Of a DNA stretch of 64,000 bases, positions 6,081 through 64,000 are shown one piece after another. The notes beneath the pieces are model-generated. The model was not told the origin of the DNA. It did no database searches and worked only from the letters and a program-made list of their open reading frames with translations. Origin of the DNA: Bacillus sp. KH172YL63 (GTDB lineage: Bacteria; Bacillota; Bacilli; Bacillales; Bacillaceae_B); the NCBI RefSeq assembly GCF_011398925.1, contig NZ_AP022842.1, forward strand, positions 3,594,001 through 3,658,000, in the 5' to 3' direction. A program made the position numbers and the translations under genes. Positions within the stretch are counted from its first letter, which is position 1. The number at the start of each line of letters is the position of its first letter.

Positions 6081-7136
6081 TTAAGAATTTCTGGTTTTAA
6101 ATAGTAAATAGATAAAGTATGGTGCACCGATCGCTGCAGTGAATACGCCTGCCGGCACTTCGAGAGGCAGGAATAATGTACGGCCGATCAAGTCTGCCAC
6201 CATCACGAGAATCCCCCCGATGAGGGCAGCAGTCGGAAGGAGGACACCGAATGACGAGCCAACCATCCGTCTTGCCATATGCGGTGCCATCAAGCCGACA
6301 AATCCGATCCCGCCTGCGAACGCGACGGCCCCGCCCACCAGTGCCGTCGCCATCAGGAGAAGGATAAAGCGCTGCCGCTCAACATTCCCTCCGACACTTG
6401 TCGCGATTTCTTCGCCTAGTTCCTGTATATTCAGCTGCCGCGTAATAAAGAAGCTTAACAGGATAAAGACCAGGCTCCATGGCAGAAGCATCCACACATC
6501 CTGCCAATCGGATCCGTTCACTGTGCCCGTGATCCATATATTTGCCTGACTCGCCCTGTAGATTGGACCAAGTATCATCAATAGTGTCGTCAAAGCCTGG
6601 GTCAAAGCGGAAATCCCGATCCCGATTAGGACGAGTCTAACAGGAGACACCCCTTTTCGCCAAGCGAGAAAGTATACGAGAAATGCAATGACGGTCGCAC
6701 CGGCGAATGCCGCGACCGGAAGCCATTTGATACTGACCGTAAGTGAATTGTCATCATTGCTGAACAGGGTCAGGAAGCCGACGACCGCAGCTCCTGCTCC
6801 CCCTGTGATCCCGATGATGTCAGGAGAAGCCAGCGGATTGCGGATCATCCCTTGAAGGATTCCACCCGCAACGGCTAAAGCCATTCCTGCAAGCAGGGCG
6901 ATGAGAATCCGTGGCAGTCGGAAAGACGTCACTACGAGCTGTTCCAGGCTTGTCCCCCCGCCGAAAAAGACACTGATCACTTTCCATGGCGCAATTTTCA
7001 TATCACCGATTCCGGTGCTCATGATCAGGACGATCAGGGCGAGCACACCCAGGATGGTCACCTTTTTCAATGCCGATACATCAACAAGGAGAGAGACACG
7101 GTCCTGAAGCCAACGTTTTCCAATAAACCGATTCAT
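6081..7136 (-). CDS. FecCD-family iron-siderophore permease (second subunit)
   Basis: A 351-residue integral membrane protein with about ten hydrophobic segments. It has a short cytoplasmic N-terminus (MNRFIGKRWLQDRVSLL) and the FecCD signatures LPRILIALLAGMALAVAGGILQ, NPLASPDIIGITGGAGAAV, GGAVAFAGGIGFVGLMAPH and LIGRTLFLPLEVPAGV. It pairs with the neighbouring permease to form the channel for an Fe(III)-siderophore complex. Only three bases separate it from the upstream permease gene, which implies translational coupling. Transcription starts from the Fur-controlled divergent region near 8.2 kb. Confidence 0.93.
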   Translation of the reverse strand: MNRFIGKRWLQDRVSLLVDVSALKKVTILGVLALIVLIMSTGIGDMKIAPWKVISVFFGGGTSLEQLVVTSFRLPRILIALLAGMALAVAGGILQGMIRNPLASPDIIGITGGAGAAVVGFLTLFSNDDNSLTVSIKWLPVAAFAGATVIAFLVYFLAWRKGVSPVRLVLIGIGISALTQALTTLLMILGPIYRASQANIWITGTVNGSDWQDVWMLLPWSLVFILLSFFITRQLNIQELGEEIATSVGGNVERQRFILLLMATALVGGAVAFAGGIGFVGLMAPHMARRMVGSSFGVLLPTAALIGGILVMVADLIGRTLFLPLEVPAGVFTAAIGAPYFIYLLFKTRNS

Positions 7137-7139
7137 CTG

Positions 7140-8126
7140 CTAAAACCCCTTCCTTGCCACATACACGAAGAATGGGGCACCGATGATTGCAGTCATGACC
7201 CCTACCGGTACTTCCTGCGGCATGATAATGTAACGGGCCCCGATGTCTGCTGCCAATAATAAAATCGCACCTAAGAGCCCTGAATAAGGAATGAGCCAAC
7301 GGTGATCAACGCCGATGATCTTTCGCGCGAGATGTGGGATGACGATTCCGACGAAGCCGATCGGACCGGCTACTGCCACCGATCCGCCTGCCATCAGTAC
7401 TACAATCACCAGGGCGATGAATTTGATCAAGGCTGTTTTCAGACCTAGACCTTTGGCAACATCTTCACCCATGGCAAGTATATTCATTTTGCCGGCGATC
7501 ACGAGTGCCAGCATCCAGCCGCCTGCCATATAAGGGAAAACAGCGCCTAACTGTTCGATGCTTCTCCCCTGAACCGAACCCGCGAGCCAGAACAATACCT
7601 GCTCAAGTGCCGCTTCGTTCAGAACGAGCAAGCCCTGGGTAAAGGAAGAAAACATCGCTGTGATCGCAGCCCCTGCCAAAGTAAGCTTCATAGGTGTCAG
7701 GCCTTTATTCCCGACTGAGCTGATGACATAGACGCCGACTGCTGCTATACCGGCACCTGTAAACGCAAGCCAAGTGAAAGATTGGAGGCTCGAAACGCCG
7801 AACAGCGTGACGGCCACTACGACCATGAATGCACCACCTGCATTGATTCCGAATATACCCGGAGAAGCGAGAGGATTTTTTGTCAATGTCTGCATGATGA
7901 CACCTGAAATTGCAAGGGAAGCCCCCACCGCTGCTGCAATCAGTGCCCTCGGAAGCCGGATCGTCTGCAGCACAATATGCTCCGTCGAACCGTCCGGATC
8001 TGTAAATGCGTTGAAAGCTGCCTTCCAGGATGTATCCGTATAACCATAAACAATACTTATTCCCATGCACACTATAAGGAACAGGAATGTCACCATAAAT
8101 AAAATAAATTGTTTTTGAGTTTTCAT
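7140..8126 (-). CDS. FecCD-family iron-siderophore permease (first subunit)
   Basis: A 328-residue membrane protein with the same FecCD landmarks: LPRALIAAAVGASLAISGVIMQ, NPLASPGIFGINAGGAFMV, GSVAVAGPIGFVGIVIPHLAR and ADIGARYIIMPQEVPVGV. It is the first gene of the five-gene operon permease - permease - yusV - FhuF-like - yusU. Its start is about 90 bases from the nearest Fur box. The binding lipoprotein is encoded divergently on the other side of the same control region, so uptake genes on both strands should respond to iron together. Confidence 0.93.
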   Translation of the reverse strand: MKTQKQFILFMVTFLFLIVCMGISIVYGYTDTSWKAAFNAFTDPDGSTEHIVLQTIRLPRALIAAAVGASLAISGVIMQTLTKNPLASPGIFGINAGGAFMVVVAVTLFGVSSLQSFTWLAFTGAGIAAVGVYVISSVGNKGLTPMKLTLAGAAITAMFSSFTQGLLVLNEAALEQVLFWLAGSVQGRSIEQLGAVFPYMAGGWMLALVIAGKMNILAMGEDVAKGLGLKTALIKFIALVIVVLMAGGSVAVAGPIGFVGIVIPHLARKIIGVDHRWLIPYSGLLGAILLLAADIGARYIIMPQEVPVGVMTAIIGAPFFVYVARKGF

Positions 8127-8215
8127 TATGTGAACCTTTCTATTAGGAAAAAAGATTTCATTTCGGTCTATTCTTCCCTTTCTAGTTTAAAGAAGAGACG
8201 TACAAGCGTCAATGA

Positions 8216-8300
8216 CTTTGAAAATCATTATCAATTAACTGTTGACAATGAAAACCTTCTCATCTACTATTATGAATGTAAATGATAACGATTATCAATC
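8216..8300. promoter_or_regulatory. Divergent Fur-controlled promoter region
   Basis: Two Fur boxes close to GATAATGATAATCATTATC: GAAAATCATTATCAATTAA (about 8218-8236) and AAATGATAACGATTATCAATC (8280-8300). For the plus strand, TTGACA (8242-8247), a 17-base spacer and TACTAT (8265-8270) form a sigma-A promoter that the second box directly follows. The first box is placed to control the leftward permease operon. Confidence 0.85.
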
Positions 8301-8328
8301 GATAAAAAAGATTCAGGGGGACCTACAT

Positions 8329-9285
8329 ATGAAATTAAAAAGTTTATTATCTTTTCTGCTCATCACAACTCTCCTCTTTCTAGCCGCTTGCGGTAATAAA
8401 GAGGAAAAGGAAGAATCAGCAGATAAAGATGCGAAAGAAGAAACATATACAGTCGATCACGCAATGGGGACGACTGAAATCAAAGGAACACCAAAGAAGG
8501 TCGTGATCTTAACGAATGAAGGAACGGAAGCACTCCTTTCAATGGATGTAACGCCTGTTGGAGCCGTACAATCTTGGACAGGAGATCCTTGGTATGATCA
8601 TATCTCCGAGCAAATGAAGGATGCTGAAGTTGTCGGTACTGAAAGTGAATTGAACATCGAAGCGATCGCGAAGCTTCAGCCTGATCTGATCATCGGGAAC
8701 AAAATGCGTCAGGAAGAACAGTATAACCAACTGAAGGATATCGCTCCTACAGTCATGGCGGAAACCCTTCGCGGTAACTGGAAAGAGAACTTTGAACTGT
8801 ATGCAAAAGCGTTGAATAAAGAAGAAAAAGGCCAGGAAGTTCTTGCTGCCTATGAGCAGCGCATGGAAGACCTTAAAGGCGAACTTGGTGATAAACTGAA
8901 CCAGGAAGTGTCCATGGTCCGTTTCATGGCTGGGGATGTCCGTATTTATCATAAAGATTCATTCTCTGGTGTTATTCTTGATCAGTTAGGGTTTGCACGT
9001 CCGGAAGGCCAGGATGTTGATGACTTTGCTGAAAAAGGTGTAACGAAAGAACGCATTCCTGCAATGGACGGGGATGTTCTATTCTACTTCACATACGAAA
9101 CAGGTGATGGTGAAGCGAATAAACTGGCGGAAGAATGGATCAACGACCCACTGTTCCAAAACCTTGAAGTCGCAAAGCAAAATCAAGTCCACGAAGTAAA
9201 CGATGCAATCTGGAATACTGCAGGTGGTGTCATTGCAGCGAATAAAATGCTTGATGATATAGAAAAGATTTTCTTAAATCAATAA
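8329..9285 (+). CDS. Iron-siderophore ABC transporter substrate-binding lipoprotein
   Basis: A 318-residue lipoprotein with a lipobox (LLFLAACGN, lipidated Cys21) and an acidic linker (KEEKEESADKDAKEE). A class III periplasmic-binding fold follows: TPKKVVILTNEGTEALLSMDVTPVGAV, LQPDLIIGNKMRQEEQ, FMAGDVRIYHKDSFSGVIL and NDAIWNTAGG near the end. It would capture an Fe(III)-siderophore outside the membrane and deliver it to the FecCD pair encoded divergently. I chose the ATG at 8329 because CAGGGGGACC precedes it; an earlier TTG at 8242 lies within the promoter. No catecholate or hydroxamate preference can be read. Confidence 0.93.
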   Translation: MKLKSLLSFLLITTLLFLAACGNKEEKEESADKDAKEETYTVDHAMGTTEIKGTPKKVVILTNEGTEALLSMDVTPVGAVQSWTGDPWYDHISEQMKDAEVVGTESELNIEAIAKLQPDLIIGNKMRQEEQYNQLKDIAPTVMAETLRGNWKENFELYAKALNKEEKGQEVLAAYEQRMEDLKGELGDKLNQEVSMVRFMAGDVRIYHKDSFSGVILDQLGFARPEGQDVDDFAEKGVTKERIPAMDGDVLFYFTYETGDGEANKLAEEWINDPLFQNLEVAKQNQVHEVNDAIWNTAGGVIAANKMLDDIEKIFLNQ

Positions 9286-9300
9286 TCATATCTCTCACAA

Positions 9301-9341
9301 CATGCCTGGAAGGGTGCCCATCCTTCCAGGCATGTTTTTTT
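9301..9341 (+). terminator. Terminator of the siderophore-binding gene
   Basis: Thirteen-bp stem CATGCCTGGAAGG / CCTTCCAGGCATG (9301-9334) followed by seven T. Confidence 0.9.
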
Positions 9342-9357
9342 ATGTGCACAATGCTTT

Positions 9358-9387
9358 TTCATAATTCTTCTATTTTCGGAAACACTA
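9358..9387 (+). promoter_or_regulatory. Possible sigma-G promoter of the ger operon
   Basis: TTCATA (9358-9363), 17 bases, AACACTA (9381-9387). This resembles the forespore sigma-G pattern TGnATA / CATACTA. An AACACTA box also precedes the spore-protein genes at 16.46 kb. Forespore expression is expected for germinant receptors. Confidence 0.4.
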
Positions 9388-9422
9388 CAGGATAGACTAC
9401 ACATCGAATATGAGGGGTTAGT

Positions 9423-10919
9423 ATGTTGTCATTTTTCAAAAACAAGAAAAGTACAGATAAAAAGCAATCATATGAAAGCATTATAAAGAGTGCGGAGAAA
9501 TCTGATGATTTTAAGGAAGCCTTTTACCAAAACCCTCATACCGGGGCCAAATTCAGCCTGCATTTCATTACGACCCTGATCGATGGAAAGATCCTGCAGG
9601 AGGATGTCCTTCCCTCTTTGCTTTCGAAGGATTTTCATTCATTTGATGATTTAAAGAAGCTCGTCCCCGTTCTGGATATCCAAGTGTCGAAAGATGAATC
9701 GAAAATTGAACAGAAGCTCTATAACGGATACACGGTCCTGACGATGGATGCCTCTAGTAAAGAGTTTGCATTCATCGCCACAAAGAATGAAATGGGAAGG
9801 AAAGTGTCCCAGCCCGAAGTGGAATTCAGCGTTGTCGGTCCAAAAGAAGCCTTTGTCGAGTCTCTCAGTGACAACTTGAATCTGATCCGGAAGCGGCTGC
9901 CGATTAAAGAATTATTAGTCGAAGAATTCAATATCGGAAAAATGACCCATACGAGAGTCGTCCTTGTCTACCTTGACGGCCTTGCCAATGAAGCGAATGT
10001 GAACACAATGAGACAGAGGCTGCAGGCCATAGATTTCGATCAGATCATGGACAGCTCGTTCATTGAGCAGCTCATTGCCGACAACAGCTACTCCCCTTTC
10101 CCCCAGCTTCTCGACTCGGAAAGGCCTGACAGGATTGCATCGGTCCTTGTGGAGGGAAAGGTTGTTGTCATGTCAGACGGATCGCCTCATGCCTTGATCG
10201 GACCGACGACATTGACCGAGTTTTTCAATGCGTACGAGGATTATTTCCTGAACTTCTCCATTGCCTCTTTCTTCCGTCTCGTACGGGTATTTTCTGTTGC
10301 CTTTTCAGTATTGATTACACCAATTTATGTAGCAGCATTAACCTATCATTACGAATTGATTCCAAAGGATCTTATGGCTACCTTGATCACTTCACGGCAG
10401 GAGATCCCCCTCCCTCCTATATTGGAGGCGTTGTTTCTCGAGTTGACGATTGAACTACTCCGGGAAGCAGGGGCAAGGTTGCCTACCAAGGTCGGTCAGA
10501 CGATCGGTATCGTTGGCGGGATCGTGATCGGGACGGCTTCGGTCGAGGCGAGCTTAACGAGTAACGTTCTGCTCATACTCGTTGCGCTCTCTGCCCTTGC
10601 CTCCTTTACGACACCGGTTTACCGGATGAGTAATACTATCCGTATCTTACGGTTTCCTTTCCTGTTGTTCGCACAGCTTTGGGGACTTGTCGGTATCGTC
10701 TTCTGTTTCTGTCTGCTCATGGGTCACCTGTTACAGTTAACATCACTCGGAAGACCGATACTCGAGCCTCTCTATCCTCCTCGTCTGAAGGACCTGAAGG
10801 ATGCCCTGATCCGGTTTCCATTCAATAAGCAGGCGGGCAGACCGGAATTTCTGCGCACTAAGATTCCCTTCAGATTCCGTCCTTCTGAAGGAAAACGAAA
10901 GGTTGATATTGACGAATGA
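9423..10919 (+). CDS. GerA-family spore germination receptor, A subunit
   Basis: A 498-residue protein with a large soluble N-terminal part containing DESKIEQKLYNGYTVLTMD and SFIEQLIADNSYSPFPQLLDSERPDRIASVLVEGKVVVMSDGSP-like GerA landmarks. About four to five membrane helices follow (SIASFFRLVRVFSVAFSVLI, RLPTKVGQTIGIVGGIVIGTA, NVLLILVALSALASFTTPVY). With the B and C subunits it forms the nutrient-sensing complex in the spore inner membrane that triggers germination. GAGGGG precedes the ATG. First gene of a tightly packed A-B-C operon. The germinant cannot be predicted from sequence. Confidence 0.95.
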   Translation: MLSFFKNKKSTDKKQSYESIIKSAEKSDDFKEAFYQNPHTGAKFSLHFITTLIDGKILQEDVLPSLLSKDFHSFDDLKKLVPVLDIQVSKDESKIEQKLYNGYTVLTMDASSKEFAFIATKNEMGRKVSQPEVEFSVVGPKEAFVESLSDNLNLIRKRLPIKELLVEEFNIGKMTHTRVVLVYLDGLANEANVNTMRQRLQAIDFDQIMDSSFIEQLIADNSYSPFPQLLDSERPDRIASVLVEGKVVVMSDGSPHALIGPTTLTEFFNAYEDYFLNFSIASFFRLVRVFSVAFSVLITPIYVAALTYHYELIPKDLMATLITSRQEIPLPPILEALFLELTIELLREAGARLPTKVGQTIGIVGGIVIGTASVEASLTSNVLLILVALSALASFTTPVYRMSNTIRILRFPFLLFAQLWGLVGIVFCFCLLMGHLLQLTSLGRPILEPLYPPRLKDLKDALIRFPFNKQAGRPEFLRTKIPFRFRPSEGKRKVDIDE

Positions 10920-10936
10920 AGCTTGGAGGTGATGAC

Positions 10937-12025
10937 ATGCAGCCAATTCCAGATAGAAGAAAAATATCCCCATTTCTCGTCTTTTTCCTCGTTCACTCGA
11001 TCCAGGTCGGGGCAGGTGTGCTTGGATTTCAACGCATCATTGCTATGAATGCAGGATATGATGGCTGGGTTGCAGTCATTTTAGCCGGGATCATCACCCA
11101 TGTCTTGATGATATGTATGTATATCATCCTCGATAAATCAGGCGGTGACCTGGTGTCGGCCCATACCCTCGCCTTCGGGAAGTGGATCGGGAAGCTATTC
11201 AGCCTGCTGTTTGCCATCTATTTCAGCCTGCTGGTCGTCACGATCCTCCGTACGTATATCGAGGTGCTGCAGGTGTGGATGTATCCGGAGCTGAGCACCT
11301 TCATGTTCGGATTTTTTTTCATGTTCTTGGTGTACTATATTGTAAATGGTGGAGTCAGAACATTGACCGGTACGGCCTTTTTCGGGACAATCCTGCCGAG
11401 CTATCTGCTCCTGACATTCATGTTCACCTTTAGATACGCCGACTTCCGGAATTTACTGCCTGTCTTTGATCATTCTATAAAAGATATTTTGATATCTACG
11501 AAAAATATGTCTCTCACTTTTCTTGGATACGAATCGATTTTAATGATCTACCCGTTTATCAAAGACGCAAAGAAGTCCCAGAAATATGCGCACTGGGCCC
11601 TTTTCACAACGACGACGGTCTACACACTCATCGCCCTTATATCATTCGCTTTTTTCAGCCAAAAACAATTGGAGAAAACGGTGTGGGCCACATTATCCAT
11701 GTGGAAAATCGTCGAAATGCCCTTTGTGGAGAGATTTGAGTATATCGGCATCGCAAACTGGTGCCTGGTTATCCTGCCGAACGTGTGCATTTCGATCTGG
11801 TGCGCTAGCCGGACGCTAAAACGGATCACCCCGGTCAAGCATAAATACACGCTGATGATCGTTTGTATCCTATGTCTCGGTTCCCTGACATTTATCTCAG
11901 ACCGGGAACAAGTCAATTTGTTAAATGATATTTCTGGGAAGATTGGATACTATTTTAATTTCTTCTATATTCCCATCCTCCTGATACTGGTGATCATCAT
12001 GAAGAAGGTGAAACATAAACCATGA
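10937..12025 (+). CDS. GerB-family germination receptor, B subunit (APC-type permease fold)
   Basis: A 362-residue integral membrane protein with about ten helices (FLVFFLVHSIQVGAGVLGF, YDGWVAVILAGIITHVLMI, WCLVILPNVCISIWCASRTL). It belongs to the spore germination branch of the APC superfamily and is thought to form the germinant-binding membrane subunit. The frame is open from an ATG at 10916 that overlaps the gerA stop. I chose the ATG at 10937 because GGAGGTGAT lies exactly before it. Confidence 0.94.
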   Translation: MQPIPDRRKISPFLVFFLVHSIQVGAGVLGFQRIIAMNAGYDGWVAVILAGIITHVLMICMYIILDKSGGDLVSAHTLAFGKWIGKLFSLLFAIYFSLLVVTILRTYIEVLQVWMYPELSTFMFGFFFMFLVYYIVNGGVRTLTGTAFFGTILPSYLLLTFMFTFRYADFRNLLPVFDHSIKDILISTKNMSLTFLGYESILMIYPFIKDAKKSQKYAHWALFTTTTVYTLIALISFAFFSQKQLEKTVWATLSMWKIVEMPFVERFEYIGIANWCLVILPNVCISIWCASRTLKRITPVKHKYTLMIVCILCLGSLTFISDREQVNLLNDISGKIGYYFNFFYIPILLILVIIMKKVKHKP

Positions 12026-13119
12026 AGAGGTTCATACTATTATTCACGATATGCCTCCTGTTCCTAAGTGGCTGTGTGGAAAGGGAAATCATTGACGATC
12101 TCTATATCGAAACCGGAAAAGCATTTGATTACGCCGGGGAAAATAAGATCAGGGGAACCTCCCTTTTCCCGATTTATGCCGCTGATAAAACCATCCAAAA
12201 TGGAACCTTGTCTGCAGAAGCAGACTCTACCCGTGAGGTACTCGAAAAGCTGGAAAGGCGCTCTCAGCAGCCTTTGGTCCGGGGAAGCCTGGATGTTGTC
12301 GTGATCGGTGAAAAGCTCGCAAAGAAAGGGATCATCGATATCGGAGACTCCCTGCAACGGGATGCAAGTGTTGGGGCAAGATTATACCTTACCATTGCTG
12401 AAGGGGAAGCGGGTGAACTCTTAAAGGGAAACTACGGACAAAGAGGAAACGGTACCTACCTTTCAAACCTCATCTATCACAACATCAACAAAAGGGAACT
12501 TCCTGAAACAAATCTCCATTTATTTCTGTTTGATTATTTTCAGGACGGACAAACACCTTATCTGCCCTTGGTAAAGCAACTCAATAAAGAAAGTGTCGCC
12601 ATCACAGGAATCGCCCTGTTCAACAAAGATAAGATGGTAAAGAAAATCCCCGCAAACGATTTATTCTTCTTCAAAATATTGGTCGATAAACTGGCAGAGG
12701 GAAGTCATGTAGTGAAAATGGAAGGAGAGGAGGCATCGGAAACAGAAAAATCAGTAGAAGCTTCGGTCACTAGCTTGAGCGCCAAACACAAAATCATCGT
12801 AAAACATAAGACCGATCCTGTCGAAGTGACCATAAAAATAAAAATCAGGGGAATCGTCAGGGAATATACCGGAAAGAAATTAACGTCTAAAAAAGTGGAT
12901 ACAGTAGAAAAAAAGATGAAAAAAGATATAGAAAAAAAGTGTATAGCCATGCTGAAGGAGTTTCAGGAATTAGGGATCGACCCCATAGGGATCGGTCAGA
13001 ACCAAAAGCACGGTGTACGGGGATTCGATATTAAAGAATGGGAAGAAAAAATCTATCCCGAGGTGAAATTCGATGTGAAAGCGGATGTTCAGATCCTGGA
13101 AGCTGGTACGGTTGAATAA
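12022..13119 (+). CDS. GerC-family germination lipoprotein, C subunit
   Basis: A 365-residue lipoprotein with a lipobox (LLFLSGCVE, Cys near residue 17). Mature Ger(x)C domains follow, including STREVLEKLERRSQQPLVRG, LDVVVIGEKLAKKGI, GIALFNKDKMVKKI and EEKIYPEVKFDVKADVQILEAG at the C-terminus. It anchors to the outer face of the spore inner membrane and is needed for receptor function. The ATG overlaps the B-subunit stop as ATGA, so translation is coupled. Directly downstream lies a copy of a dispersed repeat ending in a terminator hairpin. Confidence 0.95.
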   Translation: MKRFILLFTICLLFLSGCVEREIIDDLYIETGKAFDYAGENKIRGTSLFPIYAADKTIQNGTLSAEADSTREVLEKLERRSQQPLVRGSLDVVVIGEKLAKKGIIDIGDSLQRDASVGARLYLTIAEGEAGELLKGNYGQRGNGTYLSNLIYHNINKRELPETNLHLFLFDYFQDGQTPYLPLVKQLNKESVAITGIALFNKDKMVKKIPANDLFFFKILVDKLAEGSHVVKMEGEEASETEKSVEASVTSLSAKHKIIVKHKTDPVEVTIKIKIRGIVREYTGKKLTSKKVDTVEKKMKKDIEKKCIAMLKEFQELGIDPIGIGQNQKHGVRGFDIKEWEEKIYPEVKFDVKADVQILEAGTVE

Positions 13120-13138
13120 AAGAAAGTAAAGGGATGAG

Positions 13139-13294
13139 ACATAACGATGCCCTCATCCTCAAAACACGAACTTCTCTGAAATGCAATTCACTTTGGTACT
13201 CCACTGCTGATTTCCGTACAGGGCTTACTACATGTATGAAGTGATAGCACAAAAAATCCGAACGAAGCAGATTTTCGACTTCGTTCGGATTTTT
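13139..13294 (+). repeat. Dispersed intergenic element, copy A (ends in terminator hairpin)
   Basis: Read on the plus strand it runs CATAACGATGCC, then GAACT, AAATGCA, CTG-TGATTTCCGTAC and GGCTT. It ends in the hairpin AAAAAATCCGAACGAAG / CTTCGTTCGGATTTTT (13251-13294). The same ordered blocks occur on the minus strand at 28741-28573. In both places the element begins at or just after the 3' end of a gene and its hairpin serves as terminator. Confidence 0.8.
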
Positions 13295-13335
13295 ATTTAG
13301 CAGGCACTTTTTGTGATAAAAGTGATTTGAGTGAT

Positions 13336-56400: not shown

Positions 56401-58358
56401 GCCTCCCTCTTAAACGGATTTTCGTTCTTTTCTATTTCTTCTACACTTACGTAGTATCCTTCATCCTGCTTGTGGGACGTCATTGAGCGATGTGCCATGC
56501 ATCCGAAGATACCGACTAATGCCAGAATCGCCATCCACCACAGTTCAAACACCAGTCCGAATCCTCCTACGAAGAAGAGCGCAGACATGATGAACGGTGT
56601 CCCTGCGTTGCTCGGCATGTGAATCGGTTGATATTCAAAGTTATCAGGAACCATCTTTCTTCCTGTTTGTTTCATTTCATAGAATGCATCATGGCTTTTC
56701 ACTTCAGCCACATGTGCAAAGTTGTAGTGAGGAGGGATCGCTGAACTTGTCGCCCATTCAAGCGTACGTCCATCCCATGCATCACCTGTTGTTTCTCTTT
56801 TTGCAAAACGGTAGCTGTAGTAGATTCCATAAACAAGAACCATGAATCCTACACCCATTCCGAACGCCCCGACGGAAGAAATCACATTCAATGCCGTCCA
56901 GCCGTCTTCAGGTCCATACGTGTACACACGTCTTGGCATTCCTGCAAATCCTAATACGAATTGAGGTAAGAAACATAGGTTGAATCCGATCGAAAAGAGC
57001 CAGAAAGCCCATCTTCCGATCCGTTCATCCATCTTGTGTCCGAACATTTTCGGATACCAGTACGCAAGTCCCGCGAAGCAGGCAAATACGACACCGGCAA
57101 TCAGTGTATAGTGGAAGTGAGCAACCAGGAAGTAGTTATTGTGATATTGGAAATCGGCTGCCGCCATTCCAAGCATAACCCCTGTAACCCCGCCGATCAG
57201 GAATGTCGGGATGAACGCGACAGACCACATCATCGGCACTGTGAACTCAATCTTCCCTTTATAAAGGGTACCCAGCCAGTTGAATATCTTAATCCCGGTC
57301 GGTATCGCGATCGCCATCGTCGAAATGGAGAATACGCTGTTGACTGCCGCGCTTCCACCCATCGTGAAGAAGTGATGGACCCAAACGACGAAGCTGAGAC
57401 CTGAGATTGCCACCAGTGAGATAATCATAGATTTATATCCAAATAGTGTTTTTCTAGCAAATGTTGCAATGATTTCTGAGAAGATACCGAAAGCAGGAAG
57501 AATGACGATATATACTTCCGGGTGTCCCCATAACCAGAACAGGTTTGACCAAAGCATCGGATTACCACCGTCTGTCAATGTGAAGAAGTGGGAACCAAAT
57601 AAGCGGTCGAAAGTCATCAGTGCCAGCGTCACCGTTAGAATCGGGAATGCAAACACGATGATGAAAGCCGTGATCAATGTCGTCCATGTGAACATCGGCA
57701 TGCGAAGAAGCGTCATGCCCGGCGCGCGCATCTTGATGATGGTGACGACGAAGTTGATCCCGGTCAAGAGTGTACCGATACCTGATATCTGTAAGCCCAG
57801 CAGGTAATAGTTGATACCCGGTCCAGGACTTCCCTCAATCGCAAGAGGTGCATAGTTCGTCCAACCTGCATTCGGTGATCCACCGAATACGAAGGAAATA
57901 TTGAAAAGGATTGCCCCGAACATGAATGCCCAGAAGCTCAGGTTATTCAAGTAAGGAAATGCAACGTCCCTGGCACCGATTTGCAAAGGTACGACAACGT
58001 TCATCAATCCAAGTAAGAACGGCATCGCCATGAATAAAATCATGATCGTACCGTGGGTCGTAAAGATTTCATTGTAATGCTCAGAAGTTAAAAATGAATT
58101 ATCCGGCACAGTCAATTGGGCCCTCATCAAGAGTGCATCAACTCCTCCGCGGAAGAGCATGACAAGTGCTGCAAGGATATACATAATCCCGATCTTTTTA
58201 TGGTCAACGCTTGTGATCCAGTCATTCCACAACCATTTCCATTTTTTGAAATAAGTGAGGACTGAGACGATTGCGATCACGGTGAAAACGATCGAAATGT
58301 TGGCTCCTAAAATCAACGGATCGTTGAGGATAAGATTATCCTTAATAAAATCAAACAT
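56397..58358 (-). CDS. qoxB: Cytochrome aa3 quinol oxidase subunit I (catalytic)
   Basis: A 653-residue haem-copper oxidase with 14-15 helices. Low-spin haem and CuB ligands are visible: [14 protein letters not shown] (His), [17 protein letters not shown] (His-Pro-Glu-Val-Tyr, CuB His cross-linked Tyr), VWVHHFFT (two CuB His) and [13 protein letters not shown] (both haem His). It oxidises menaquinol, reduces O2 to water and pumps protons. It lies 16 bases downstream of qoxA. Length and motifs match B. subtilis QoxB. Confidence 0.97.
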
Positions 58359-58374: not shown

Positions 58375-59385
58375 TTAGTGCTCATGTTTTTTATCTTCAT
58401 CTTTTTTCATTTCGTCATGGTCAGATTCTTTCATCTCACCGTGGCCTTCCATATCCATATGCCCATGAGAAGACTTCGCGTCTTTATCTGCACCGCCTAC
58501 CGTGGTATCAAGACCATATTTCTGGCGGATCGCCATGGCATATTCTGAATTCGTACCATGGTCGACGAAATCAAGATGGGTGGATGAGAACGTCATACGA
58601 TCGACCGTCTCGGGGAGCATCAGTTTTTCATATACGTGCTCTGTTAACTTCGGCTGGTTCGTTTGTGAATCTGTCACCCAGCTTTCGTACTTATCTTCTG
58701 TCAGCGCAACGAAATCGAACGTTTGATGGGTCATCCCTTCACCAGTGAAGTTGGAGTTCCGTCCATCATACGTTCCAGGTTCATCTGCCTGAAGATACAG
58801 GTCATTGACCATGCCAGGCATACCATAGATCTGGCCGCCAAGCTGCGGCACCCATAATGAAGCCATTGAATCAGCAGCCGTCACTTTAAAGAGAATCGGA
58901 TGATCCTCAGGAACATTCACATAATTTACCGTTTCGATTCCTTCTTCAGGGTAGCTGAAGATCCATTTCCAATCGACGGCAGTGGCATGGATCACGATCG
59001 GATCCTTATGGGAAGTCGCTTCAGGCGCTTCTTTTAATTCATATAGTGCCTTTGTATTTGGGATTGATAATGCAATGACGATCAGGACAGGAATCAGCGT
59101 CCAGATGATCTCAAGGAATGTACTCCCGTGCATATCCGGCTTATAGTCACTATCTTTCTTACTGCTTCGGTACTTTAATAGAATCATTGTAAAGAAACCT
59201 AATACGACAACCATAATCGCAAGCATATAGTAAATCGACAGCATGATCAGATCCTTTTGAACAACGCCTACAGGTCCTTTTGGATCCAGGATAATTAACT
59301 CGCTATCCGTGCTGAATATAATAATGAAAAATAAAGAAACCAGACTTATTAAAACAATTAAATAAGGTTTGAATTTATTAAACAA
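58375..59385 (-). CDS. qoxA: Cytochrome aa3 quinol oxidase subunit II (no lipobox, TTG start)
   Basis: A 336-residue subunit II. Two helices (YLIVLISLVSLFFIIIFS, LSIYYMLAIMVVVLGFFTMILL) are followed by a cupredoxin domain (VDWKWIFSYPEEGIETVNYVN, DSMASLWVPQLGGQIYGMPGM) that lacks the Cys ligands of a CuA site, as expected for a quinol oxidase. The first helix contains no Cys, whereas B. subtilis QoxA is a lipoprotein at this point, so anchoring here depends on the helix. The C-terminal tail is His/Met/Asp-rich (SHGHMDMEGHGEMKESDHDE). The start is TTG at 59385 after AAGGTGATTTCTT. First gene of qoxABCD; the promoter lies in 59386-59470 but is not assigned. Confidence 0.93.
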   Translation of the reverse strand: MFNKFKPYLIVLISLVSLFFIIIFSTDSELIILDPKGPVGVVQKDLIMLSIYYMLAIMVVVLGFFTMILLKYRSSKKDSDYKPDMHGSTFLEIIWTLIPVLIVIALSIPNTKALYELKEAPEATSHKDPIVIHATAVDWKWIFSYPEEGIETVNYVNVPEDHPILFKVTAADSMASLWVPQLGGQIYGMPGMVNDLYLQADEPGTYDGRNSNFTGEGMTHQTFDFVALTEDKYESWVTDSQTNQPKLTEHVYEKLMLPETVDRMTFSSTHLDFVDHGTNSEYAMAIRQKYGLDTTVGGADKDAKSSHGHMDMEGHGEMKESDHDEMKKDEDKKHEH

Positions 59386-59547
59386 AAGAAATCACCTTCC
59401 TTTATGTAGAATTTGCACTCGTAGACCTATACTATCAAAATTCTTTAAACAGGTACCCTAAGTAAGTGCAATTTCAAACAGATTTTCGAAATTTAGACGC
59501 ATTTTATTCACAGAACGGTAACAATGTTGGAAAGAATTTCAGGTTGG

Positions 59548-59592
59548 AGAAAAAAATAGCTCCCAAAGTTATAGGAACATAACGTTGAGAGC
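59548..59592 (-). terminator. Terminator of the HEPN-STAND gene
   Basis: Minus strand GCTCTCAACGTTAT / ATAACTTTGGGAGC with mismatches, loop GTTCCT, then TATTTTTTTC, 38 bases past the stop. Confidence 0.7.
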
Positions 59593-59629
59593 GTTTTATA
59601 GGTTGATTATTGTGAAAATAAAGTGTTAA

Positions 59630-62065
59630 CTAACTTTTAGAAATAACTGTTTTTTTGCCGTAGCCTATATACCTTTTTAAATCTCTTTTAAGGAAGCTTA
59701 TTTTAAATCCTCTTACGAATTGAGGATTTTGATTTATTTGGTCTTCTATGAGTAAAAGCGACTGAAAATAATCATTATTGTTTGTCTTTTTAAACATACT
59801 ATTATAACAGCGACATAATTCTGCAAGCATTTTATAATAATTTGCGTCCAAAATATTTAAAGCTTCAAAAATACTTTTAGATTCTTCAAGATATTTAATG
59901 GCATTCGGCTTATCTTGAAGGTTTTTACTTAGAAAAATTCCATAAATCCATAAAATTGCTGCATAGGATTTTGTGTTTCTAATATAATTATAATTAAATT
60001 GTACTGAGTAAATTGTTTGTTCAAAATAATCATTTACTACCTTTGTAGAATGCTCGGTCTCTACTCCACTGTCTAGAAATAGCTTAAAGATCCTTGCTTT
60101 TTGACATTTCACATAGGGATGAGAAGTTCTTATTTCAAATTCCTTAAACTTTAATTCCATATCTTTAACTTTTTCTTTTAATTCCTCTCCTTTGTACCTT
60201 CCAAGTGAATCTAGTGCTTGTCCGTATAGATTAAAAACCTCAGAAATAGCAATTTCATCTATATAATTTTTGGGTTTCCAATCGTCCATAATTTTATTTA
60301 ATAGTGCATTTTTAGCTTTAATCCCTTCCAGATTACTTAGGTTCCTTTTTATACTTTTTTTATGATTATATATTTTATCTTCTAAATTTATTAATTCTAT
60401 TCTATTAGGCATAAATTTAATAAATATAAATTTATTAGCAAACTCATTTAAACTATATAGCTCTTCGGTTTTATTAAGAATTAGTTTTGTGGATAGATAA
60501 TTACACATGTGTTCTATGTCTTTAATATTTATGTTAGAAATCTTACTTATTGAGAATATGTCTACGGGTTCATTGTATAAAGAAATTATTCTTAACATCT
60601 TAATAGGTTCATATCCCTTACTTGTAAGTTCATCTATTGTTTGATTAAAGCTGTTTTTGTACATAAAGTCCGCTATTATCTCTGCATTTTGCGATGAGAC
60701 ATCCTCTAATTCAGAAACTATTGTATTTATTGAAGTTTTACCTTCGTTTAATCTCTCTAGAGCTAAAACTAATATCAAAGTGTTTCCCTTAGTACCGTGT
60801 AGTAATTCTAGTTTTGACTCATTACTTAAATTTAAAGATAAGTTATTTTCATTAATATAATCATTAATGAAATTCACTCCATTATTTTTTTCATTAAAAC
60901 CCTCAATGTACAGCTTTTCTTCACATCTCTCTTCATTTCTAGAAGTAATTATATACTGCACACTTCTTGGACTTTTCTTAATAAAGTCAAGTGTTTTAAT
61001 TTTATCTTCTTCATCGAAAGTTTCGAAGTTATCAATAATGATTAAACCTTTATTATATTGTTTTTGAAAGGACTCTTCCCAATTCTTAATACCCAAGTAT
61101 TTATAAATATTGCGGTTTAATTCTTCAAAAGAATTTATCTGTTTACGTATATCACTTATATAAAGATTTCCCGTTGTTGTTGAAATTTTCAATAATTCCT
61201 CTTTACTTGTAAAAAACAACATAAAATCATAAGGTTCGCCTATGTTTTTATCAATTGTATCTTTTATAATTTCTTTCAAGAATTCAATAATTAGTGCTGT
61301 CTTACCTACGCCCCCATATCCATATACTACTACTGAACCCGCTTTCCTATAGTAACTCTCGTGACCTACAATTAAGTCTCGCAAACTCTGAAGTTCATTA
61401 TCTCTAAATAATAGCTTTTTATGGTCTAATGTAATTTCACTTAGATTGTGTGTTTTTATTGGATTATTTTTGTTATCTAAAAGAAGGTTATTTATTTTTT
61501 CTACTATTTGGCCTTTAGATACGAACCAAAAATATTTCTCATCCAATTTTTCGATCATTTTTCGAATAAAGGTTATAATTTCCTTGGCATCTTCGTAAGT
61601 AACTTTAGAGGATGCTGGATGCGAAAGAGAATTTCTAATCTTCTGGTAATTTATTGAGTAATAAACAAATTGTTCAATATTCTTAAATTCCTTACTTAGA
61701 ATAATAAAGTCTGTTGAAAAGTAAAATAAAGTAAAATCAATTATCTGACCTAAATATAAAACATCTTTTTGATTTTCATCAATATCATAATCTTTATTAC
61801 AATAACAGTTGTAACTATATTCTATGGCATTATAGATATCTTTTTGATTTTGTCTTATTTCCTTTATTTTTTGGTTAAACTTATTACTATGTACTAATGA
61901 ACTTTTAGAAATTTGAGACTGTAATAATGTGATACCTGAATAAAATTCTGTTTCGTTAATAAATTTTTTTTTAAGTTTATCTACAACCAGTGAACGGTAT
62001 GCTACTTCAAAGCTTTTTATAACCTTATCTAATTCAAAACACTTAGTAGTCGAAAGGTACATCAT
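59630..62065 (-). CDS. HEPN-STAND ATPase, candidate anti-phage defence protein
   Basis: An 811-residue protein. Residues 1-180 are helical and contain IRNSLSHPASSKVTYEDAKEII, with the HEPN RNase motif R144-N-S-L-S-H149. Residues 215-470 form a P-loop ATPase: FRDNEL lead-in, VVYGYGGVGKTALI (Walker A 249-256), GLIIIDNFE (Walker B 341-346), ITSRNEER (373-380) and GTKGNTLILVLALERL, the STAND/NB-ARC GLPLAL equivalent. The remainder is long and helical with TPR-like or winged-helix character, suited to sensing. This matches the effector - STAND - sensor plan of Avs-like defence proteins. AAAGGTGGTTAAAA precedes the ATG. The DNA is very A+T-rich (8 G/C in the 60 bases 60361-60420, against 31 in 57361-57420). 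It stands alone. Confidence 0.8.
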   Translation of the reverse strand: MMYLSTTKCFELDKVIKSFEVAYRSLVVDKLKKKFINETEFYSGITLLQSQISKSSLVHSNKFNQKIKEIRQNQKDIYNAIEYSYNCYCNKDYDIDENQKDVLYLGQIIDFTLFYFSTDFIILSKEFKNIEQFVYYSINYQKIRNSLSHPASSKVTYEDAKEIITFIRKMIEKLDEKYFWFVSKGQIVEKINNLLLDNKNNPIKTHNLSEITLDHKKLLFRDNELQSLRDLIVGHESYYRKAGSVVVYGYGGVGKTALIIEFLKEIIKDTIDKNIGEPYDFMLFFTSKEELLKISTTTGNLYISDIRKQINSFEELNRNIYKYLGIKNWEESFQKQYNKGLIIIDNFETFDEEDKIKTLDFIKKSPRSVQYIITSRNEERCEEKLYIEGFNEKNNGVNFINDYINENNLSLNLSNESKLELLHGTKGNTLILVLALERLNEGKTSINTIVSELEDVSSQNAEIIADFMYKNSFNQTIDELTSKGYEPIKMLRIISLYNEPVDIFSISKISNINIKDIEHMCNYLSTKLILNKTEELYSLNEFANKFIFIKFMPNRIELINLEDKIYNHKKSIKRNLSNLEGIKAKNALLNKIMDDWKPKNYIDEIAISEVFNLYGQALDSLGRYKGEELKEKVKDMELKFKEFEIRTSHPYVKCQKARIFKLFLDSGVETEHSTKVVNDYFEQTIYSVQFNYNYIRNTKSYAAILWIYGIFLSKNLQDKPNAIKYLEESKSIFEALNILDANYYKMLAELCRCYNSMFKKTNNNDYFQSLLLIEDQINQNPQFVRGFKISFLKRDLKRYIGYGKKTVISKS

Positions 62066-62465
62066 TTTTAACCACCTTTTTACAATATAGTTAATTTCTA
62101 TTATAATGAAATTCTGTTTATTATGTAATTAATATTTATTCAATATCACCAAACAAATTATAAATGTATTTAATAATAGGTTTCTGTAATTATTGGGTAA
62201 TTTAATTTAATGAGAAAAGGCAAAAAGCATTCATTCCGAAGTCCATCGTTATGAATGCTTAATTATTGTACATGATATCAATCCTATGTTACCCGTTTGT
62301 CACTTTTACCCTTTCAAAGTAGGAATATCATTTATTCCTTGCTAACACTAATTACATGATTTAACTTACAGACAAACAGGAGTAGGGACACTTGTATTTT
62401 TTCTACTAATTATGCTCCCTCTTTTAAGACCAACTAAGGGACGATTCAATCGCAACGGGCTCTTG
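62066..62465. other. A+T-rich flank of the STAND gene, no supported gene
   Basis: About 400 bases between the STAND start and the truncated glutaredoxin. It contains a hairpin AAGCATTCAT / ATGAATGCTT (62225-62260) and otherwise no long open frame on either strand. The sequence 62380-62470 shows no clear inverted or target-site repeat, so how the block arrived is unknown. The STAND promoter must lie at the left end but was not assigned. Confidence 0.5.
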
Positions 62466-62597
62466 TTACCTATTTTCCTCACAACCTACATCTTTAAGGA
62501 TATAATCCACCTTCTGTTCACTCAAGTACGTTTTCGCTGCTTGACAGTCTGAACAGGTCGGGCGGGTATAGAGCTCTAACTCCAAATTACGGCTCAT
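62466..62597 (-). pseudogene. Truncated glutaredoxin-family gene
   Basis: An ATG at 62597 with GGAGCTGGTGG upstream starts MSRNLELELYTRPTCSDCQA (Cys15, Cys18), then AAKTYLSEQKVDYILKDVG, clearly the first half of a glutaredoxin. The frame then diverges and stops at residue 43, where a full glutaredoxin of this kind is about 80 residues. The break coincides with the edge of the A+T-rich block. Situated 27 bases behind copA and on the same strand, it was probably a copA-linked thiol protein before the second half was lost. A short native form cannot be excluded. Confidence 0.7.
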
Positions 62598-62624
62598 CAA
62601 ACCACCAGCTCCTTTCATCATGAC

Positions 62625-64000
62625 CTACATACTTGACTTAAATCCTTTCAAACGCAGGGCGTTCAGCAATACAGATACAGAGCTGAAGCTCATCGCCGCC
62701 CCTGCAATCATCGGATTCAGCAATGGACCTCCGAACAGATAGAGGATGCCCATGGCAACCGGTATACCGAGGATATTATAGCCAAATGCCCAGAACAGGT
62801 TCTGCTTAATATTCCGGATCGTCGCTTTACTCAGTTCAACTGCAGCAGGTACATCTCTGAGGTCACTCCTCATCAGGACGATGTCTGCCGACTCCATGGC
62901 AACATCCGTTCCAGAGCCGATGGCAATCCCGATATCTGCCTGTGCAAGGGCAGGGGCATCATTGATTCCGTCTCCGACCATCGCCACTTTGCGTCCCTCT
63001 CCTTGAAGCTTCTTGACTTCATTCGCCTTATCTTCAGGCATGACTTCACTGAGCACCCGGTCTATGCCGACTTCCTTCGCAATCGCTTCAGCGGTGCGCT
63101 TGTTGTCCCCAGTGATCATCGCGACTTCAAGCCCCATGCTGTGAAGCTTTTCAATCGCTTTGTAACTTGTTTCTTTCACTGTATCGGCAACGGCGATGAT
63201 GCCGGCGATTTCCTCTTCAACCGCGATATACATCGGCGTCTTCCCTTCCGCTGCCAACCGGTCCGACACTTCTGCGAACTCCCCGACATCAACATCATTT
63301 TCATCCATGAGCTTCCGGTTTCCAAGGAGCAGATCGTCGCCTTCGACGGTCACTTCGATTCCTTGGCCGGTAATGGCATCAAAGAAGTCGGTTTTCCGCA
63401 GGGTGAGTCCCTTCTCTTCCGCCTCCCTGACAATCGCTTCGCCGAGGGGATGTTCAGAGCCTTTTTCGGCAGATGCCGCAAGGATCAGAAGTTCCTCTTC
63501 CGTTATGCCTTCAGACGTTACAATATCTGTCACGACAGGTTTTCCTTCTGTGATGGTACCCGTTTTATCCAACACGACGGTGTCGATTTTATGTGTTGTT
63601 TCGAGGGCACCTCCGCTTTTGATCAGGACGCCATTTTCCGCTCCCTTGCCTGTACCGACCATGATCGCTGTCGGAGTTGCAAGGCCGAGGGCACACGGAC
63701 AGGCGATGACGAGAATCGAAATCGAAATGGTAAAGGCAAAGAGACCGGATTCTCCCCCCATGTACCAGGCGAGCCCTGACAGGATGGCAAGGACGATGAC
63801 GATGGGCACGAAATACCCTGAAATGATATCCGCCATTTTCGCAATCGGTGCTTTTGATCCCTGCGCCTCTTCCACCAGCTTGATGATCTGCGATAATGCC
63901 GTATCCTTTCCGACCTTTGTCGCCTCATAACGGATTGTGCCGTTTTTATTGATACTTCCCCCGATCACCTGGGATCCGCTTATTTTCTCTACAGGGATGC
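62625..64000 (-). CDS. copA: Copper-exporting P1B-type ATPase, N-terminal part missing (right edge)
   Basis: The open frame continues past base 64000, so the N-terminal metal-binding domains and first helices are outside the window; 458 codons are visible. Motifs: membrane ion site [13 protein letters not shown] (CPC), phosphorylation site [14 protein letters not shown] (Asp), [10 protein letters not shown] (HP motif of P1B pumps), [11 protein letters not shown] and [22 protein letters not shown]. The C-terminal helices [21 protein letters not shown] and [21 protein letters not shown] match Cu+-specific CopA. It pumps Cu+ out of the cell. The internal GTG at 63968 is not the start. Confidence 0.95.

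Follow-up and report, generated by a model that had tools for sequence, protein, structure and literature searches.

The copA and qoxA genes of Bacillus sp. KH172YL63 are separated by an A+T-rich block of DNA in which a gene for an 811-residue protein is found (positions 59630-62065 of the window, i.e., the whole 64,000-nucleotide stretch analyzed here), raising the question of what this gene does and how it came to lie there. A preliminary description made from the sequence alone had read its product as a lone HEPN-STAND ATPase acting as a one-protein defence system, and the follow-up analysis presented here supports this reading. We consider it probable that the locus holds a one-gene NLR-like antiphage system in which TPR sensing, a STAND switch and HEPN-type RNA cutting are combined, and which is carried as mobile cargo.

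Domains and conserved motifs of the protein

The start codon of the gene is preceded by AAAAAGGTGG, and the motif positions first described were reproduced in the translation (RNSLSH at residues 144-149, GYGGVGKT at 249, LIIIDN at 341 and ITSRNEER at 373). The HEPN assignment depended on conservation of the R-N-x3-H motif among homologues, which holds in the seven full-length proteins that were aligned (those of the window and of loci L002, L003, L004, L005, L006 and L008, described below): RNxLxH is invariant in 7/7, along with the following proline (R144, N145, L147, H149 and P150). The R-x4-6-H string alone is not rare, as two occur in the 811-residue protein; when invariant residues were placed at random in the N-terminal domain, five fell within a span of seven positions in about 1% of placements, in a test chosen only after the motif had been noticed. 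A chance motif was rejected on the invariance of R144-N-x3-H149 together with N145, L147 and P150. A second motif, E-x3-[KR], which many HEPN families have in their N-terminal part, is likewise kept in all seven members as E20-V-A-x-R24, inside a predicted helix (residues 6-34). The HEPN superfamily is defined by R-x4-6-H with a polar residue following the R (PMC3710099), a position taken here by N145, and the domain is predicted to form a four-helix bundle with the motif at a helix end and in the following loop, as expected of HEPN proteins. Its closest fold in a second-look structure search was PbAbiF (8vz6) bound to its non-coding RNA (ncRNA), and C. difficile AbiF is no longer toxic once its HEPN-motif R and H are changed (PMC12373285). 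The N-terminal profile found nothing among PDB sequences at E 10. A Pfam DUF4559 match (E 0.0012-0.0044) was below cut-off, was seen in one member only and was not used as proof. DUF4559 covers the CXorf38 protein. The latter is reportedly treated as a HEPN family, joined to NACHT in some animals (PMC3710099).

The following STAND core and C-terminal array (Table 1) display the features by which STAND proteins are recognized, namely Walker A (residues 248-257), Walker B (LIIIDN, 341-346), a TSR sensor (374-376), helical and winged-helix parts, and C-terminal repeats. All seven members retain, with conservative changes, the motifs of Walker A and Walker B as well as TSR and KGN; Pfam AAA_16, NACHT and NB-ARC were below cut-off for the 811-residue protein and were seen in 5-7 of the seven members. 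Foldseek searches with a model of the whole protein (pLDDT 73.3, pTM 0.43) returned as top match the STAND-TPR protein 6mfv (E 8e-07), along with the tomato NRC2/3/4 resistosomes and the Avs3-terminase complex 8dgc, with clamp-loader ATPases and SAMD9 likewise under E 0.001, and residues ~560-810 matched mostly TPR proteins. Other searches gave less: the whole protein yielded 353 weak matches among PDB sequences, the 60 of 353 listed being Ras-type GTPases, and the two BFVD fold matches under E 0.001 were a clamp-loader subunit and an ankyrin-repeat protein. Mean identity over all member pairs was 39% in the N-terminal domain, 52% in the nucleotide-binding domain, 50% in the helical and winged-helix parts and 40% in the TPR array; the predicted effector and sensor are hence the most variable parts, a pattern consistent with, though no proof of, a sensor that tracks shifting targets.

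Table 1. Features of the copA-qoxA interval and of the encoded protein (window coordinates).
Feature	Position	Strand	Description
HEPN-STAND-TPR protein gene	59630..62065	minus	811 aa, ATG start, open frame
HEPN-type effector domain	61421..62065	minus	residues 1-215; E20-x3-R24 and R144-N-x3-H149 invariant
STAND/NLR ATPase core	60407..61420	minus	residues ~216-553; includes helical and winged-helix parts
TPR-like helical array, proposed sensor	59633..60406	minus	residues ~554-811
Foreign A+T-rich block	59620..62475		~2.86 kb, 26.9% G+C, between copA and qoxA
Non-coding region upstream of the gene	62066..62465	minus	~400 bp
Cut-down glutaredoxin-like gene	62466..62597	minus	43 aa

These matches bear on whether the protein could be a MalT-like STAND regulator of host genes, with an N-terminal domain that binds RNA or a partner and cuts no RNA. 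Such a role would agree with 6mfv being a predicted STAND-TPR transcription factor devoid of an effector domain, and the prediction covers a HEPN-like fold, not its activity. However, no member departs from the R, N, H and E of the two HEPN motifs, the top matches to the N-terminal domain included no DNA-binding domain, and the patchy distribution reported below is atypical of a regulator; on these grounds the regulator was rejected, and we regard it as quite unlikely.

Homologues in or near mobile elements and the PfAC11 phage

A tblastn search of 50,697 phage records gave one homologue, open reading frame 2 (ORF2) of the Pseudomonas filamentous (Pf) phage PfAC11 (L002), which aligned over 99% of the query with 35% identity. 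A profile of the window and PfAC11 proteins led to five loci in a collection of 84,980 species, from Curvibacter (L003), a Bacteroidetes metagenome bin (L004, whose taxonomic assignment is less sure because the contig is only 14.5 kb), P. chlororaphis (L005), P. caricapapayae (L006) and Enterobacter EA-1 (L007), and to one viral contig in IMG/VR (L008); the member count is a lower bound, since the collection scans relied on two short patterns. The Enterobacter copy was left out of the alignment because it is broken, with many stops and frame changes at 7800-10100 that reflect decay or assembly error. Identity of the window protein to the six other full-length members is 36-39%, and L002, L005, L006 and L008 are 62-70% identical among themselves.

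Occurrence within lineages is sparse. Only the starting genome carried the gene in a whole-genome search of the Bacillus genome and 100 relatives (1/101), in a genus sample around P. chlororaphis (1/298), in a phylum sample around L004 (1/296) and in a family sample around L007 (1/246). Two of 398 genomes in a sample of the phylum of the window genome matched, one being the genome itself; the other (L010) was rejected as a member, as the match covers the NTPase only and the N-terminus is different. At 526-2841, L010 encodes a related STAND core and a TPR-like end behind an N-terminus that is AlbA/Schlafen-like by eye, hinting at effector swapping on a shared ATPase. The plasmid collection gave no match at E 10 (window protein) or E 1 (PfAC11 protein), E. 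coli genomes gave no DNA match to the Enterobacter stretch, and five viral-contig scans returned L008 as the sole family member, L011 being rejected as a short weak match inside transposase-like (by eye) sequence.

At 7/7 loci the homologue is lower in G+C than its surroundings (37% vs 59% in PfAC11). The gene lies within a Pf phage genome as cargo at one end of the PfAC11 record; it follows P2-type GpU and GpD tail genes by ~0.5 kb in L008; integrase genes above the Pfam cut-off are found nearby in L003 and L006, the latter with a second integrase match just below it; and a tRNA-Sec gene adjoins the L007 homologue. In L005 a C4 phage-immunity RNA is nearby, with the C4 antisense RNA and its a1/b1 target at 7118-7317, ~0.7 kb upstream of the homologue. 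No mobile feature is visible in L004, where the gene starts near the contig edge. The HEPN-STAND-TPR gene thus likely travels as mobile cargo. When the flanks of the eight loci were compared (4 kb per side at most, and less in the case of the window, L002, L004 and L008), no frame of at least 35 residues was shared at E 1e-4, and therefore no linked partner is evident. Beside the L006 homologue, the stretch 10639-13301 holds a frame (10639-11451), a protein gene with no Pfam match (11569-12705) and a DUF4365 protein gene (12675-13301), possibly further defence genes.

PfAC11 ORF2 (WVW75598.1; 481-2841 of L002, record OR863245.1) is labelled 'SeAvs3' in GenBank, and its depositors call it Avs from an NLR-ATPase HHpred hit (PMC11878078). 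According to the same report, spots on a PAO1 lysogen of PfAC11 were more turbid, and plaques significantly fewer, for two of four lytic phages, the other two showing no difference, and patient-11 isolates carrying PfAC11 were resistant to all four phages, whereas a non-carrier was sensitive (PMC11878078). ORF2 is a full-length homologue, 36% identical, with the motifs and domain order of the window protein and differs in its label, the term HEPN not occurring in the main text of PMC11878078. Given the HEPN motifs in its N-terminal domain and the lack of an Avs model match, the Avs3 label looks wrong. It is likewise quite unlikely that the window protein is a true Avs (Avs3-type) protein recognizing terminase or portal. 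The annotation of the homologue and the Foldseek match to 8dgc (E 1.2e-04) speak for this, but PADLOC found no match for the window protein, and across the seven members it matched just two families, LmuB and C3a64, each weakly and in a single member; the protein has 811 residues vs ~2000 in the 8dgc chains; and its N-terminal domain is HEPN-like, the Avs3 effector being a Cap4-type nuclease. Strict Avs3 membership was rejected, as no Avs profile model appeared among the PADLOC matches.

Apparent entry of the gene between copA and qoxA

Recent acquisition had been proposed from base composition, and the counts behind it were exact when repeated (8/60 G/C at 60361-60420 and 31/60 at 57361-57420). 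The gene has 26.7% G+C vs 46.4% for the window without the A+T-rich block, its third-position G+C is 22% (54% in qoxB and 58% in copA), and it coincides with the G+C minimum among 616 overlapping 2.4-kb segments. Twenty same-genus stretches were taken for comparison: four show no copA (one of these ended by a contig end), and 16 have a copA-type match and qoxA in order, orthologous copA (~90% or more identical) being present in 14 and a different ATPase (38-39%) in L063 and L066. The gene is in none of these 16 intervals. Toward qoxA, DNA similarity to relatives breaks off at 59611-59628, where the gene reaches its stop codon, in 15 of the 16 that match there (at 59540 in the other). Toward copA, it picks up again at 62467-62485 in 8/9 relatives (at 62512 in the ninth); this second boundary falls inside a glutaredoxin-like gene that is intact at this site, with 92-99 residues, in 9/14 relatives. 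The A+T-rich composition, the absence from relatives and these breaks support an acquisition. The block edges show no long repeat and no mobile gene. Entry would have taken place after diversification of the genus. The copA-qoxA interval measures 371-642 bp in seven of the 14 relatives and 2.73-2.76 kb in five, with a glutaredoxin-like gene, a small gene and a 507-508-residue gene (the last two SHOCT-like and multicopper-oxidase-like by eye); the remaining two hold other genes in 5.2 kb (L058) and 9.0 kb (L059), and the interval is therefore a variable site in the genus. Genes in the ~9-kb interval of L059 resemble, by eye, PelF and PelG of the Pel polysaccharide cluster.

The non-coding region upstream includes an inverted repeat at 62225-62260; on the minus strand a T-rich stretch comes next, and by eye the two resemble a terminator that the scan did not list. 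The best promoter-like site of the minus strand lies at 62129-62100, and such sites are not above chance (21 vs 19.6 expected). This region and the PbAbiF-like fold could suggest an AbiF-like toxin restrained by an adjacent ncRNA, the STAND part being accessory. AbiF/Abi2 proteins (PbAbiF, C. difficile AbiF) share the R-N-x3-H motif and the best fold match with the window protein, but they are much shorter and have an RNA antitoxin. The abiF RNA motif (RF03085 in PMC12373285) was sought at E up to 1 in 59300-62700 and at the gathering score in six homologue loci, without a match; moreover, the 600-bp upstream stretches of the loci share no similarity, and in PfAC11 the gap from ORF1 to the gene is only ~60 bp. 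Control by such an RNA was rejected on the missing motif and seems very unlikely.

Proposed mechanism and meaning of the family

A defence role is likely for the HEPN-STAND-TPR protein, and a mechanism may be outlined. TPR-STAND proteins stay closed as long as their arm and sensor touch the nucleotide-binding core, and they multimerize once an inducer binds (PMC6468293); by analogy, the resting protein would hold ADP in a STAND core that its C-terminal TPR array keeps closed. Binding of a phage component, most likely a protein, to this array would lead to exchange of ADP for ATP and oligomerization via the ATPase cores, and N-terminal HEPN domains paired as dimers would form composite R144/H149 active sites. 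Cleavage of cellular or phage RNA, or both, would then arrest growth before phage release. The lysogen resistance and the AbiF R/H mutants lead us to infer that a phage component, once sensed, sets off an abortive response based on RNase activity. Confidence in the proposal is somewhat lowered because only one HEPN fold match ranks above unrelated ones. PfAC11 also carries PfsE, which confounds the lysogen resistance. PfsE is annotated after PA0721 in the PfAC11 record; PA0721 is a PAO1 locus tag, so the PAO1 recipient should presumably already have PfsE, which is therefore a less likely cause. A selfish cargo or maintenance toxin of mobile elements with no action on phages, which the carriage of homologues in or near such elements would allow, is highly improbable in view of the PfAC11 lysogen data and of the lack of an antitoxin-like partner common to the loci.

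The HEPN-STAND architecture has already been drawn from sequence in the literature, and the window family is a variant thereof. Bacterial HEPN domains fused to STAND ATPase, TPR and S1 parts have been described, including an N-terminal HEPN-STAND protein of B. cereus, with Abi2/Swt1-group fusions named as Npun_F6454, MED222_16016, Desac_1927 and B. cereus gi 229028907 (PMC3710099). As far as their description allows comparison, these resemble the window family in joining HEPN to a STAND ATPase with TPR among the parts, whereas the latter has no visible S1 or cold-shock part. STAND modules with GT4 or HEPN effectors are known as well (PMC8195603), the HEPN fusions corresponding to the arrangement proposed here; their STAND is described as inactive and eroded, whereas Walker A and B are intact in 7/7 window-family members. 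Avs and the TIR-, SIR2- and nuclease (Mrr)-STAND proteins of P4 hotspots (PMC9122126) share an N-terminal effector, a STAND switch, C-terminal repeats and carriage by phages or satellites, but the effector of the window family is HEPN-type and has no PADLOC Avs match. DefensePredictor validated four HEPN and seven P-loop NTPase systems (PMC13092281). No phage test of a HEPN-STAND protein was found among the literature matches listed, in which subscription journals are thinly covered.

A wider claim, to which we give about even weight, is that these proteins constitute a distinct family, so far without a name, of NLR-like immune receptors encoded by one gene, whose effector is a HEPN RNase. Such receptors would be compact enough to fit into a 12-kb filamentous phage and would have reached three phyla by way of mobile elements, and the PfAC11 cargo would be the member protecting P. 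aeruginosa lysogens through RNA cleavage once its 250-residue TPR array senses a phage protein. The family offers a compact single-gene case together with a published natural experiment, in which Pf phage lysogens resist two lytic phages. If the proposal is true, the label of the PfAC11 gene would be corrected from Avs3 to HEPN-STAND-TPR, its expected mechanism would shift to RNA cleavage, and the carriers of NLR-type genes would come to include a filamentous phage as well as a P2-type viral contig.
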